From NCBI RefSeq assembly GCF_902729405.1, contig NZ_LR746496.1, positions 124,001 through 188,000 of the forward strand: a stretch of DNA of 64,000 nucleotides, written 5' to 3'. This document shows, one piece after another, positions 30,968-39,338 of the stretch. Each line of letters begins with the position of its first letter. Position 1 is the first letter of the stretch. The stretch is from Acididesulfobacillus acetoxydans. GTDB lineage: Bacteria > Bacillota > Desulfitobacteriia > Desulfitobacteriales > Desulfitobacteriaceae. The notes beneath the pieces were generated by a model. The model worked only from the letters and a program-made list of their open reading frames with translations. It searched no databases and had not been told where the DNA came from. Position numbers and translations under genes: made by a program.

Positions 30968-32159
30968 CGCAAAGCTTTTTGAACATCTCCCAAAACCAGA
31001 ACTTAACGATAGGGCGTCCTTGCGACGGCATGTCCTGCCCTTCTGACGGACCGGCCGAACCGGCGGGCGCCCGTATTCCCCGCGCATCCGACCCTGCGCC
31101 TGCAGCCGCGTCTTGCGCCGCACCCGGGGCAGTCGCCCCCCGTGCTTGCTCAGCCTCCCACACGTTCAGAGCGGCGGGCGCCGCTTTGCCCTGAGCATCC
31201 TGCACCGCGCCTGCACGAGCCGCGTCCTGCAGCGCGGCCGCGGCAGCCGCATCCTGTGCCGGCCCGGCCCCCCACAAGTCCTGACCGTCGACCGCATCCT
31301 GTCCCCCGGCTGCGTTCTCTGCGCCGGTCCCCGATTCCGCTCCCTTTGTGGTCACACCCCCTCGTCCCGGTATATTCTCCTGTCCCTCCGTATTCCCCCG
31401 TCCCGCTGTATTGCTCTGTCCGTCCGCCTTCCCCTCGCGGGCTCTTTCCTTGGCGAGGGCTTTGTCCACACTGCGCTCAACCCCGGGACTTTCCGGCTTG
31501 ATAGGAATACCCGGCTTTCCGTCGACCTGAACCGCGGTGGAATAGTTAATATCGACAAAGCATAAGGGAGGAAACAGGACGCACCACCAATTGGCACCCT
31601 GCGCGCGCCCGATCAGGATCCGGACGGCTTGGTAACGGCCCGCCGGCAAGACCAGTGAGCCGTATGATTTCGTCGGAAAATCGGCAGGCCCGAACTTGGC
31701 CTTGACCGGGTAATTCTTGCCCCACGCCTTCACCACTCCCTCCGCGATAGCTTGCATCTCCGGCAGGGCCTGCTCAAGCATGACGCGGGATGCCGCCAGG
31801 GAATGGGACTTGGCCAGCTCCGGCCCGACCTTCTTTAAAATGGCGTCTCGGACAGCCCTTTTCAGGGCTTGATCATAGTCGCTGTCCGAGTTGGCAACCA
31901 CGTGAAACCGAATCATTTGATCCGCCGGAAGCGTTTTAACCTGCTGCTCCAAGCGATTAAACTCCGCAGCCTCAGCCCCGGGAACAGCGGTTACGCGGGC
32001 CGGGGCCCGCAGCGCCCGGAGCGCACTCCCGCACAAGACCAGGACCAACACAATACCCAAAACCGCCGGGCCTAACCAACGTCCTTCGTGAACTCCCGTC
32101 CCTTTCGCTCCCTTTGTTCCGGCGGGATTTTTTTGTCCGCACTTTATCGCCCTTTCCAT
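30945..32159 (-). CDS. spoIIR: Stage II sporulation protein R with a long low-complexity insertion
   Basis: SpoIIR is the forespore-made signal that triggers SpoIIGA to process pro-sigma-E in the mother cell. After a signal/membrane segment (LGPAVLGIVLVLVLCGSAL) the conserved domain is clear: QMIRFHVVANSDSDYDQALK, VRDAILKKVGPEL, YPVKAKFGPADFPTKSYG, LPAGRYQAVRILIG and NWWCVLFPPLCFVD. The short conserved tail (VKFWFWEMFKKL) is at the very end. About 140 Ala/Gly/Gln/Asp-rich residues lie between the core and this tail, making 404 residues against roughly 200-250 usually. The ATG at 32159 has AGGAG 8 bases upstream; the frame's earlier part is not family-like. The gene marks the organism as a spore former. 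Confidence 0.9.
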   Translation of the reverse strand: MERAIKCGQKNPAGTKGAKGTGVHEGRWLGPAVLGIVLVLVLCGSALRALRAPARVTAVPGAEAAEFNRLEQQVKTLPADQMIRFHVVANSDSDYDQALKRAVRDAILKKVGPELAKSHSLAASRVMLEQALPEMQAIAEGVVKAWGKNYPVKAKFGPADFPTKSYGSLVLPAGRYQAVRILIGRAQGANWWCVLFPPLCFVDINYSTAVQVDGKPGIPIKPESPGVERSVDKALAKERAREGKADGQSNTAGRGNTEGQENIPGRGGVTTKGAESGTGAENAAGGQDAVDGQDLWGAGPAQDAAAAAALQDAARAGAVQDAQGKAAPAALNVWEAEQARGATAPGAAQDAAAGAGSDARGIRAPAGSAGPSEGQDMPSQGRPIVKFWFWEMFKKLCVKVPEFL

Positions 32160-36011: not shown

Positions 36012-37025
36012 TCAAATGCTGAAGACGTGGTTCCCGATCTGTGTAACAACCGGCCTGCTTTTGATCCAGTGATCCGTCGCCAACCTGGGATTGTAATAGT
36101 AGAGTGCCCCATGTGTGGGGTCCTCCCCGGCCAGCGCGGCCTCGGCCGCTTTGTAAGCCATGGCGTCCGGTTTAAGAAGAATCTGGTGATCGGCCACCGA
36201 GGTAAAAGCCCCCGGCTGAAAGATCACGCCCCGAATCGTTTTGGGAAAGTGCGGGTCTTTGAGGCGATTCAGAACTACGGCTCCCACCGCCACCTGCCCT
36301 TCAAAATCTTCCCCTCGGGCCTCCGCATAGATCACTCGCGCCAACAGATCGACATCCGACTGACTGTAGGTCGGTTCGTCTTCCCCGCGTGAGACGGGAA
36401 TAGAACTTTCCGCCGTTAAAGTCAAAAGATTTATCGCCCCGCCGCTCCCGGATGTAACTCCCGGTTGACGCGGCCCGGGGCCTGAAACCTGCTCTTTCCC
36501 GGAATTTCCGGCTGCCGCCCGCCGTTGATCCTTGCCTTTGGCTGCAATGCCCGCAGTCACAACCCCTTGCGCGATTGAGGCCGCGGCCGTGGCCTTTGCG
36601 CTTTCGGCCTTGTCTGTCATCCAGACGTTAACCACCTGCACTTTGCCCACAGACGGGTCGAAGGACTCGGAATACACCGGAACCCACAGCGTCTGCCCTG
36701 CCTCAATCTCACTCGGCTCGCACAGCCCGTTTAAAGCATCCATCTCCTTCACAGTCGTCCCATACTCCCGGGCCAAACTCCAGATGGTTTCCCCCCGGCC
36801 CACCGTCACCCTGTGCACCGGACTTGAACTGCCTAACTTAAGCGGTACCGGGCCCGTCCCCGCCGGACAGTTCCCGTTCGCTTTCTCTCCTTGTGGCGGC
36901 AAACTGCCGGACCCTCTTCCCGAACACTCCTGTCCTTGGGCCGGAAAAACGGAAGTCTGGAGTAAAAACAAGACGATCACCCCGCACAGAAACGCCGCGG
37001 ATTTCCGACTTCGTCGGTGTGGCAA
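36012..37025 (-). CDS. Secreted LysM-SleB cell wall hydrolase (spore cortex-lytic enzyme family)
   Basis: The order is signal peptide (AFLCGVIVLFLLQTSVFPAQG), one LysM domain (VHRVTVGRGETIWSLAREYG, about residues 75-120), an Ala/Gly-rich linker, and a C-terminal hydrolase-2 (SleB) domain (VDLLARVIYAEARGEDFEGQ; VAVGAVVLNRL; GALYYYNP). SleB-type enzymes cleave spore cortex peptidoglycan as lytic transglycosylases; the Glu in YAEARGE is the likely catalytic residue. I chose the TTG at 37025, 4 bases after AGAGGTGA; an earlier TTG (37043) is possible. The gene is divergent from cooS. Confidence 0.88.
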   Translation of the reverse strand: MPHRRSRKSAAFLCGVIVLFLLQTSVFPAQGQECSGRGSGSLPPQGEKANGNCPAGTGPVPLKLGSSSPVHRVTVGRGETIWSLAREYGTTVKEMDALNGLCEPSEIEAGQTLWVPVYSESFDPSVGKVQVVNVWMTDKAESAKATAAASIAQGVVTAGIAAKGKDQRRAAAGNSGKEQVSGPGPRQPGVTSGSGGAINLLTLTAESSIPVSRGEDEPTYSQSDVDLLARVIYAEARGEDFEGQVAVGAVVLNRLKDPHFPKTIRGVIFQPGAFTSVADHQILLKPDAMAYKAAEAALAGEDPTHGALYYYNPRLATDHWIKSRPVVTQIGNHVFSI

Positions 37026-37158
37026 AAAAATCACCTCTCGCAATACAGACTGGAACCAGCCCTTTCTGAGGCCGTTTTTCGGCCTTTTTCGGGTAGTTCC
37101 TAGTCTTTCCCAGAATAGGCGATTCTAAACTTTCGGGTCATTCCCTCAGCCCCACCGA

Positions 37159-37192
37159 TGGTTAATGTGCATAGAACCCCGTATAATGCACA
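37159..37192 (+). promoter_or_regulatory. Candidate cooS promoter with an overlapping inverted repeat
   Basis: A perfect TATAAT (37182-37187) has a weak -35 box (TGGTTA, 37159-37164) 17 bases upstream. TGTGCAT (37166-37172) and ATGCACA (37186-37192) form a 7-bp inverted repeat spaced by 13 bases that overlaps the -10 box, as an operator would. Confidence 0.45.
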
Positions 37193-37235
37193 AACTTTTT
37201 TCGGAGCCAGCCCGTCAGCCCTAATAGCATTTTCA

Positions 37236-37350: not shown

Positions 37351-39264
37351 ATGAGTGAAACTATCCGGGAAAAAACCGAGGGGCGAGTCAGTTATCATGA
37401 CTCGGTCGAGGAAATGTTGGTCAGGATCCGGGCCGACGGGATGTCCAATGTTTTTGACCGCTACGCGGCCATGGAAAAAATCCGCTGCAAGTTCTGCCTG
37501 GAAGGCTTGAGCTGCCAGCAGTGCTCGAACGGACCCTGCCGCCTCAACCTCAAAGGCGCACAGGACAAAGGAGTTTGCGGCATCGGACCGGACGCTATGG
37601 CCATGCGCAAACTCCTTTTGCAAAACATCATGGGCGCGGGTACTTACAGTCATCACGCCTACGAAGCCTTTCGCACCCTCAGGGCCACCGGGGAAGGCAA
37701 GACCCCATTTCAAATTAAAGATGTAAACAAGCTGCGCTGGCTATGCGAAAAGCTTGGCATCGCCTCAGATCAGGACACCAACCGCCTGGCCGTTCAGTTG
37801 GCCGATTTACTTAACACCCAAATGAATATAGGTGCCGACGAGCCGAATCTTATGGTAGAGACTTTTGCGCCCAAAAAAAGAATACCGGTCTGGCGGAACT
37901 TAAACATCTATCCCGCCGGAACGGTACACGAAGAGCAAAACTGCGTCGCCGGCTGTCTGACCAATGTGGACGGCAACCACGTCTCCCTGGCTCTCAAAGC
38001 CTTGCGCCTGGGCCTGGCCACCATTTACAACAGTCAAATCGGCCTGGAAATGGTGCAGGACATCCTTTTCGGCACGCCGGCACCCCATGAAGTTAATGTC
38101 GATTTGGGTATCATGGATCCGGATTATGTCAACATCGTCTTCAACGGTCACCAGCCCTGGGCCGGCGCTCTCACGATCGAGAAAGCCAGAGACCCTCAGG
38201 TGCAGCAGCGTGCCCGAGCCGCCGGAGCCAAGGGCCTGCACGTCGTGGGCTCTATCGAAACCGGCCAGGAACTTCTCCAGCGCTTTGCGGTGGACGACGT
38301 CTTCACCGGCCTCACCGGCAACTGGCTGGCCATCGAGCCCCTCCTGGCCACGGGCACCGTGGACGTCCTGGCCATGGAAGAGAATTGCTCTCCCCCGGCC
38401 ATCGACATGTATGCGGAGAAGTACCAGGTCACGTTAGCAGCCATCAGCACGATCATCGATCTGCCCGGCCTCCGGCACAAAATTCCTTACAACCCGTCCC
38501 AGGTCAACGCCATGTCAGAGCGCCTGATCGATTTGGCCCTGGAGAATTTCAAAAAACGGAGAACCAGCGTTACCCCCCAAGTTCCCCGTCACACGCAAAA
38601 AGCCATAGCCGGCTTTTCCACCGAGGCTGTTCTGGGAGCGCTGGGCGACAAACTTGATCCCCTTGTCGACGTGATCGCCGCCGGTAAAATTAAAGGAGTC
38701 GTCGCCCTGGCTAACTGTTCCACCCTTCGCAACGGGCCCCAGGACTGGAATACCGTCAACCTGACCCGGCGGCTCATACAAAAAGACATCCTGGTTGTGG
38801 CCGGCGGCTGCGGCAACCATGCCCTGGAAGTGGCCGGACTCTGCAGCCTGGACGCAGTTAACCAGGCAGGGCCGGGTCTGAGCGAAGTGTGCCGGGCCCT
38901 GAAGATCCCCCCTGTCCTCAGCTTCGGCACCTGCACCGACACCGGCCGGATCTCCATGCTGGTCACCGCCCTCGCCGACCACCTGGATGTGGACATCCCC
39001 CAACTGCCCATAGCCGTCACCGCTCCCGAATGGATGGAACAAAAAGCCACAATTGACGGAGTCTTCGCGGTCGCCTACGGCGCCTACACCCACCTTTCTC
39101 CTACTCCTTTTGTCACCGGAGCTCCCCAACTGGTGAAACTCCTGACCGAGGACGTCGAGGGGCTGACCGGCGGCAAGATCGCCCTGGGAGACGATCCGGA
39201 AGAAGTGGCAGGGAATATTGAAGCCCACATTCTGGCCAAGAGAAAAGGCTTGGGACTTAAGTGA
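37351..39264 (+). CDS. cooS: CooS-family protein with a non-canonical C-cluster (deviant anaerobic CO dehydrogenase homolog)
   Basis: The 637-residue protein aligns over its full length with Ni,Fe CO dehydrogenases. B-cluster cysteines are present (55, 58, 63, 76). Of the C-cluster ligands I find His267 and Cys346, Cys456, Cys487 and Cys528. At the place of the remaining ligand (Cys295 in Carboxydothermus CooS-II, within VGICCTGNE) this protein reads VGSIETGQE, with Glu303. One D-cluster cysteine is also replaced (Ser54), while an extra Cys49 is present. Known: CooS-V of C. hydrogenoformans lacks a C-cluster cysteine, holds an Fe/S/O hybrid cluster and does not oxidise CO. This gene may be of that kind. 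No cooC, cooF or acetyl-CoA synthase genes are adjacent; a terminator follows. Confidence 0.88.
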   Translation: MSETIREKTEGRVSYHDSVEEMLVRIRADGMSNVFDRYAAMEKIRCKFCLEGLSCQQCSNGPCRLNLKGAQDKGVCGIGPDAMAMRKLLLQNIMGAGTYSHHAYEAFRTLRATGEGKTPFQIKDVNKLRWLCEKLGIASDQDTNRLAVQLADLLNTQMNIGADEPNLMVETFAPKKRIPVWRNLNIYPAGTVHEEQNCVAGCLTNVDGNHVSLALKALRLGLATIYNSQIGLEMVQDILFGTPAPHEVNVDLGIMDPDYVNIVFNGHQPWAGALTIEKARDPQVQQRARAAGAKGLHVVGSIETGQELLQRFAVDDVFTGLTGNWLAIEPLLATGTVDVLAMEENCSPPAIDMYAEKYQVTLAAISTIIDLPGLRHKIPYNPSQVNAMSERLIDLALENFKKRRTSVTPQVPRHTQKAIAGFSTEAVLGALGDKLDPLVDVIAAGKIKGVVALANCSTLRNGPQDWNTVNLTRRLIQKDILVVAGGCGNHALEVAGLCSLDAVNQAGPGLSEVCRALKIPPVLSFGTCTDTGRISMLVTALADHLDVDIPQLPIAVTAPEWMEQKATIDGVFAVAYGAYTHLSPTPFVTGAPQLVKLLTEDVEGLTGGKIALGDDPEEVAGNIEAHILAKRKGLGLK

Positions 39265-39303: not shown

Positions 39304-39338
39304 GGTCCCGGAGAATTCTCCGGGACCGTGCCTTTTTG
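39304..39338 (+). terminator. Terminator after cooS
   Basis: A perfect 24-base palindrome (39304-39327, minimal AATT loop) is followed after five bases by TTTTT, 40 bases beyond the stop codon. Confidence 0.8.

Follow-up and report, generated by a model that had tools for sequence, protein, structure and literature searches.

We analysed a 64,000-nucleotide stretch of the Acididesulfobacillus acetoxydans genome (contig NZ_LR746496.1, positions 124,001 to 188,000 of the forward strand), referred to below as the window. It carries a genuine and complete open reading frame for a homolog of the CO dehydrogenase (CODH) CooS, and the features at and around this gene are collected in Table 1. The protein matched PF03063, and the Pfam scan found no output domain in it. 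With 862 bits against the NCBIfam model TIGR01702 (cut-off 478), standard annotation would call it a CO dehydrogenase, as an earlier note on this DNA had anticipated; the HCP family model TIGR01703 gave 48.5 bits, below its cut-off of 360.8. The divergent neighbour (36012-37043, minus strand) encodes a LysM and Cell Wall Hydrolase (SleB-like) protein, which fell under the curated cut-off for the spore cortex-lytic enzyme SleB. Downstream of the gene, the stem-loop suggests a single-gene unit, although such matches in the region were no more numerous than in shuffled sequence. Upstream of the start codon lies a dispersed repeat with hairpins, which is present once in the window and whose core CCACTCCCACTTGTAGAAGTGGGAGTCTCACG occurs in other copies. 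Rfam gave no match in the window, the repeat included; the repeat has the appearance of a small mobile element or an RNA element.

Table 1. Features of the cooS-V-type locus in the window
Feature	Position	Strand	Basis
CooS-V-type CODH homolog (clade D, structural group D-1), 637 aa	37351..39264	+	PDB 7b7q identity, PF03063, TIGR01702
Type III D-cluster motif codons, C46-X2-C49-X5-C55	37486..37515	+	alignment; definition in PMC6344411
Glu303 codon, at the CODH-II Cys295 position; matches CooS-V Glu295, a hybrid-cluster ligand	38257..38259	+	alignment, invariance
Glu563 codon; equals hybrid-cluster ligand Glu556 of CooS-V	39037..39039	+	alignment
Sigma-F/G type promoter-like site GCATA-N14-GCACAAACT	37169..37196	+	one mismatch to GYWTA-N14/15-GGNNANANT; relatives conserve the site
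Dispersed repeat, about 80-90 bp, between promoter-like site and start codon	37236..37325	+	at least 40 genome copies
Terminator-like stem-loop downstream of the gene	39304..39327	+	such matches in the region not above shuffle count
spoIIR domain	31548-31922	-	perfect sigma-F type site 32323-32295 (-)

The protein was aligned with CooS-V of Carboxydothermus hydrogenoformans (CooS-V Ch, PDB 7b7q) and with two canonical CODHs (L002, L003) and one HCP (L001) of the same genome. The earlier note had read by eye that a glutamate stands where a C-cluster cysteine, Cys295, belongs. The alignment confirmed this: the window protein has VGSIETGQE where canonical CODHs have AGICCSGNE or VGICCTGNE, and the C295 position is occupied by Glu303, not by a cysteine. 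The other C-cluster ligands (His267, Cys346, Cys456, Cys487 and Cys528) are retained as claimed, and the replacement of a D-cluster cysteine by Ser54 and the extra Cys49 were both read correctly. A Ni,Fe CODH has a full C-cluster set of five cysteines and one histidine together with an acid-base catalyst histidine; here the set is broken by Glu303, and Tyr99 stands in place of the catalyst. We identified further changes that had escaped the first reading: Tyr99 takes the place of the acid-base His, Asn345 that of a Gln, and Glu563 that of a His which the genome's two canonical CODHs both have. At these three positions, all invariant among relatives, the window protein sides with HCP and not with CODH. 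Glu303 was invariant in 82/82 close relatives and in 29/29 sequences of a deeper set, which excludes a sequencing accident or chance. The cluster ligands were likewise all invariant in the 82 sequences and in the 29, which include newly fetched relatives (59-84% identity), and the acid-base Lys565 was as fully conserved. An AlphaFold model of the protein was of only moderate quality (mean pLDDT 72, with the N-terminus and residues 557-589 poor), and the active-site geometry was therefore left unread.

The closest protein of known structure is CooS-V Ch, which shares 58% identity with the window protein over 626 aa. It was the best PDB sequence match at 832 bits, the next CODH reaching 418 bits, and a fold search with the predicted structure returned the CooS-V entries 7b9a and 7b7q as top matches. 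All hybrid-cluster positions correspond between the window protein and CooS-V (His267/His259, Glu303/Glu295, Asn345/Asn337, Cys346/Cys338, Cys456/Cys449, Cys487/Cys480, Cys528/Cys521 and Glu563/Glu556), as do the B-cluster cysteines (Cys55, 58, 63 and 76 with Cys47, 50, 55 and 68). In a tree of 44 sequences, the window protein fell into one clade with CooS-V and 37 relatives, and four true CODHs stood apart in a group of their own at 100/99; the outgroup comprised only these four CODHs and one HCP on a long branch, and the root serves for drawing only. Structural group D-1 was defined by Inoue et al. through the same set of features (PMC6344411), and the window protein shows every one of them: Glu303 at the first C-cluster Cys, the type III D-cluster Cys46-X2-Cys49-X5-Cys55, Tyr99 at the acid-base His, Lys565 retained, Glu563 two residues ahead of that Lys, and placement with CooS-V in the tree. 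In the protein itself, nothing sets it apart from the group. The window protein is thus a CooS-V ortholog of clade D, structural group D-1. CooS-V, which the earlier note had offered as a precedent, turned out to be the ortholog itself by identity, ligand set, clade and best structure match. The altered motif, by contrast, is not the peculiarity it had been taken for: it is part of how group D-1 has been defined in print and is common to hundreds of genes, so that the Glu303 deviation is already known and explained, and the protein is a further CooS-V rather than a novel type.

CooS-V Ch and the window protein share all hybrid-cluster, B-cluster and D-cluster ligands and a stand-alone gene, and differ in the host organism. 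According to PMC9311411, CooS-V Ch holds an Fe/S/O hybrid cluster and no Ni, neither CO oxidation nor CO2 reduction was found, and hydroxylamine was reduced slowly (0.13 per second), with no NO reduction detectable above background; the C295E variant of CODH-II was Ni-deficient and did not oxidise CO. HCP also resembles the window protein, in that its active-site His, Glu, Asn-Cys, three Cys, Glu, Lys and Tyr correspond. However, the window protein has a CODH scaffold with a bridging D-cluster and lies on the CODH side of the phylogeny.

We further studied the distribution of this type of gene. At least 499 relatives, near or distant, came out of a scan with one genome per species. The top 80, at 73-85% identity, belong to Desulfosporosinus, many Clostridium species and other Clostridia. 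One relative, in a record named Calditrichales bacterium MX18-03, is 81% identical to the window gene's product and falls inside the Clostridia group of the tree; this is either a mislabelled record or a recent transfer. Around the window gene, none of cooC, cooF and acs was present among the ORFs listed or the Pfam-scanned neighbours, in line with the earlier note; such genes are located elsewhere in the same genome. There, a Crp-like regulator, a CooF-like protein, a CODH and an NAD(P)/FAD oxidoreductase stand in a row (G000:C1:1269551-1274260), and a CooC-like gene precedes the second CODH. The neighbourhoods of the 80 relatives contained no conserved partner gene, the most frequent clusters being found in at most 12 loci, and no conserved regulator adjoined the gene. 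Moreover, in eight host genomes the other prismane-family genes were only of hcp length (frames of 534-591 or 599 aa, assigned to HCP by length), and two draft genomes, 94 and 92% complete, had no other prismane-family member. The presence of a cooS-V-type gene in genomes without another CODH argues for a role independent of a working CODH and of CO metabolism.

The upstream sequences of the 80 loci revealed a recurrent element, first seen as [AG]CATA and [AG]AACTT separated by 18-19 bases. This exact pattern occurred in 28/81 loci against 0.5 expected from Markov-sampled sequence, nearly always about 60 bases ahead of the start codon. Other lineages carried variants such as GTATA-N14-GGACAAAAT and GCATA-N14-GGGTAAAAACT-like sequences, which led us to liken the element to the B. 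subtilis forespore consensus. That consensus is GYATA-N15-GGNNANANT. With at most two mismatches to GYATA-N14/15-GGNNANANT and a position of -76 to -54, the element was found in 49/78 relatives, a count to be read in view of their kinship and of start codons that were in part selected on their ribosome-site scores. We settled on the consensus once this first set had been viewed, and the sets described next were tested afterwards. Among 27 newly fetched relatives of the same phylum, two or three of which share a genus with first-set loci, 16 had the element under the same limits, whereas shuffles gave a mean of 1.25 and a maximum of 4/27 in 300 runs, and nine other positions gave 0-3. The count was highest at a spacing of 14-15, and taking one value per family left 11/19. 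Neighbour genes of the 80 loci had the element in 71/792 cases. With W accepted as the third base of the -35 part, the element preceded 2/20 hcp genes and 1/20 canonical CODH genes of D-1 genomes, both as in shuffles, which sets cooS-V-type genes apart from hcp. On these results, a promoter element of the forespore type, GYWTA-N14/15-GGNNANANT, is common among cooS-V-type relatives and stands at a constant distance ahead of the start codon; about a third of the relatives are without it. The available parts of the published accounts of group D-1 hold no mention of such a promoter.

The consensus was calibrated on spoIIR of the same genomes. This gene is a known sigma-F target, expressed in the forespore of C. 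difficile. Of 19 D-1 genomes, 17 had a spoIIR site with at most one mismatch, again with W allowed (shuffles 3.4), and perfect sites were present in seven, with 0.1 expected. The bipartite promoter is thus common to spoIIR and cooS-V-type genes, forespore expression being known for the former in C. difficile and predicted for the latter. The curated SigF cut-off was passed in 23/24 D-1 genomes, including the window's own (G000:C1:3000794, 325 bits), the remaining one scoring 318 against 321 bits. SigB passed its curated cut-off in 0/24 of these host genomes; among the controls, B. subtilis was presumably the single positive. Within one phylum, spoIIR was present in 44/45 genomes with a relative, against 164/205 (p 0.002), but this is weak support for the forespore reading, as most of the phylum sporulates, kinship links the genomes, and five of the 45, at 51-52% identity, may fall outside D-1. 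In the window, 5.4 kb separate spoIIR from the cooS-V-type gene, and in another genome (G078) the two are also close, about 1.7 kb apart on the same strand. SASP and gpr upstreams showed the element only slightly above controls, and a whole-genome scan with the strict element stayed within the level of its reversed control and thus gave no basis for a wider regulon. A similar element, TACATAWWT-N-GAAAACTT (CACATA in one copy), precedes homologous aminopeptidase genes in five Desulfosporosinus genomes (L104, L109, L126, L130 and L137, at about 1501-1531), that of L109 being M18 by Pfam; the C. difficile sigma-F list includes an aminopeptidase, CD3595. Two more distant relatives (L082 and L083, upstream of 8001) had no element and shared another stretch, ATATCTGACATACTAACCTTGAATC, which possibly reflects another promoter type or simply close kinship.

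Upstream of the window gene, the promoter-like site was the only match with at most two mismatches in the 307-bp intergenic region. Given 11 matches with at most one mismatch on the plus strand of the 64-kb window, about 0.05 would be expected there. The site ends 155 bases before the start codon, compared with about 30-35 in the relatives, because the repeat intervenes.

Based on the above results, we consider it likely that the window protein is a CooS-V ortholog with a hybrid cluster, that it does not oxidise CO but acts as a slow reductase, and that its gene is transcribed in the forespore under sigma-F or sigma-G in spore-forming Firmicutes. By its ligands, the protein is expected to form homodimers bridged by a [2Fe-2S] D-cluster (Cys46, Cys49). 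It would further contain a [4Fe-4S] B-cluster at Cys55, Cys58, Cys63 and Cys76 and, where a CODH has its Ni,Fe C-cluster, an Fe/S/O hybrid cluster with His267, Glu303, Cys346, Cys456, Cys487, Cys528 and Glu563 as ligands. We infer this cofactor, and with it the lack of CO activity, from the shared ligand set. Electrons passing through the D- and B-clusters would reduce the hybrid cluster and thereby open the substrate channel. The redox-gated channel of CooS-V (PMC9311411) makes a reductase the most likely function, although the analogy is with one enzyme of very low activity, and the substrate may be a small oxidised molecule such as an N-O, peroxide or sulfur species. The earlier note had proposed a non-CO role such as nitrogen-oxide or hydroxylamine reduction; this interpretation is supported as a whole, but its nitrogen-oxide or hydroxylamine part is weak in view of the activities of CooS-V Ch. 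The upstream sequence suggests that the gene would be transcribed alone, from a promoter of either the sigma-F or the sigma-G kind, in the forespore, where the protein might, by conjecture, remove reactive nitrogen, oxygen or sulfur species or be stored for outgrowth. The broader reading, in which Firmicute CooS-V-type proteins are developmental forespore enzymes under sigma-F or sigma-G and a CODH scaffold has become a spore-compartment reductase, is one towards which we lean with some reserve.

A different setting for the same chemistry would be vegetative growth, with the protein as an HCP-like reductase against nitrosative or oxidative stress and the upstream element as a binding site or a promoter unrelated to sporulation. 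SigB promoters are similar to SigF promoters. In favour of this setting are also the hybrid cluster of CooS-V Ch and its slow turnover of hydroxylamine (PMC9311411), the strong tendency of clade D to co-occur with HCP (PMC13056359), and the control by C. difficile SigB of a different cooS, CD0174, along with stress genes (PMC7494833). We set CD0174 aside as a precedent, since its context, an operon with two putative oxidoreductases, places it probably in another clade, and since none of the 24 host genomes had SigB above its cut-off. Against a stress role also stand the undetected NO reduction and the element itself, which is missing before the hcp genes of D-1 genomes and identical to that of spoIIR. 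We therefore regard vegetative stress reduction as unlikely.

From co-occurrence, PMC13056359 suggests that clade D proteins sense redox state or a gas, or have a regulatory task, and the redox-dependent restructuring of the cluster (PMC9311411) would suit such a protein. Without a conserved adjoining regulator or an output domain, and with cluster ligands and Lys565 so strictly kept, a non-enzymatic role appears improbable. By far the least credible reading is the annotated function itself, a genuine Ni,Fe CO dehydrogenase, if perhaps a slow one. The TIGR01702 score favours it, and PMC6344411 refers to genetic work on M. acetivorans as suggesting that D-1 enzymes are involved in oxidising CO, but the invariant Glu at Cys295, the Tyr at the acid-base His, the findings on CooS-V Ch and the CODH-II variant, and the genomes in which no other CODH exists all oppose it.

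The reading as a hybrid-cluster reductase of the forespore also agrees with a genetic observation: deletion of the clade D gene in the acetogen C. autoethanogenum had hardly any phenotype, as cited in PMC13056359. Both this result and the solitary position of the gene agree with forespore expression, and so slight an effect of the deletion would make sense if the gene served sporulation alone. Members of the family are also cited from archaea that do not sporulate, Methanosarcina acetivorans and Archaeoglobus; forespore use would thus be a Firmicute trait and not the founding function. CooS-V-type proteins are widespread among Clostridia under the annotation of CO dehydrogenase, and their occurrence in genomes that have no other CODH sets the type apart from CO metabolism. 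To this the upstream region adds a specific hypothesis for the family, expression in the forespore of spore-forming Firmicutes, and the promoter, if true, indicates where and when a CooS-V-type enzyme should be studied.
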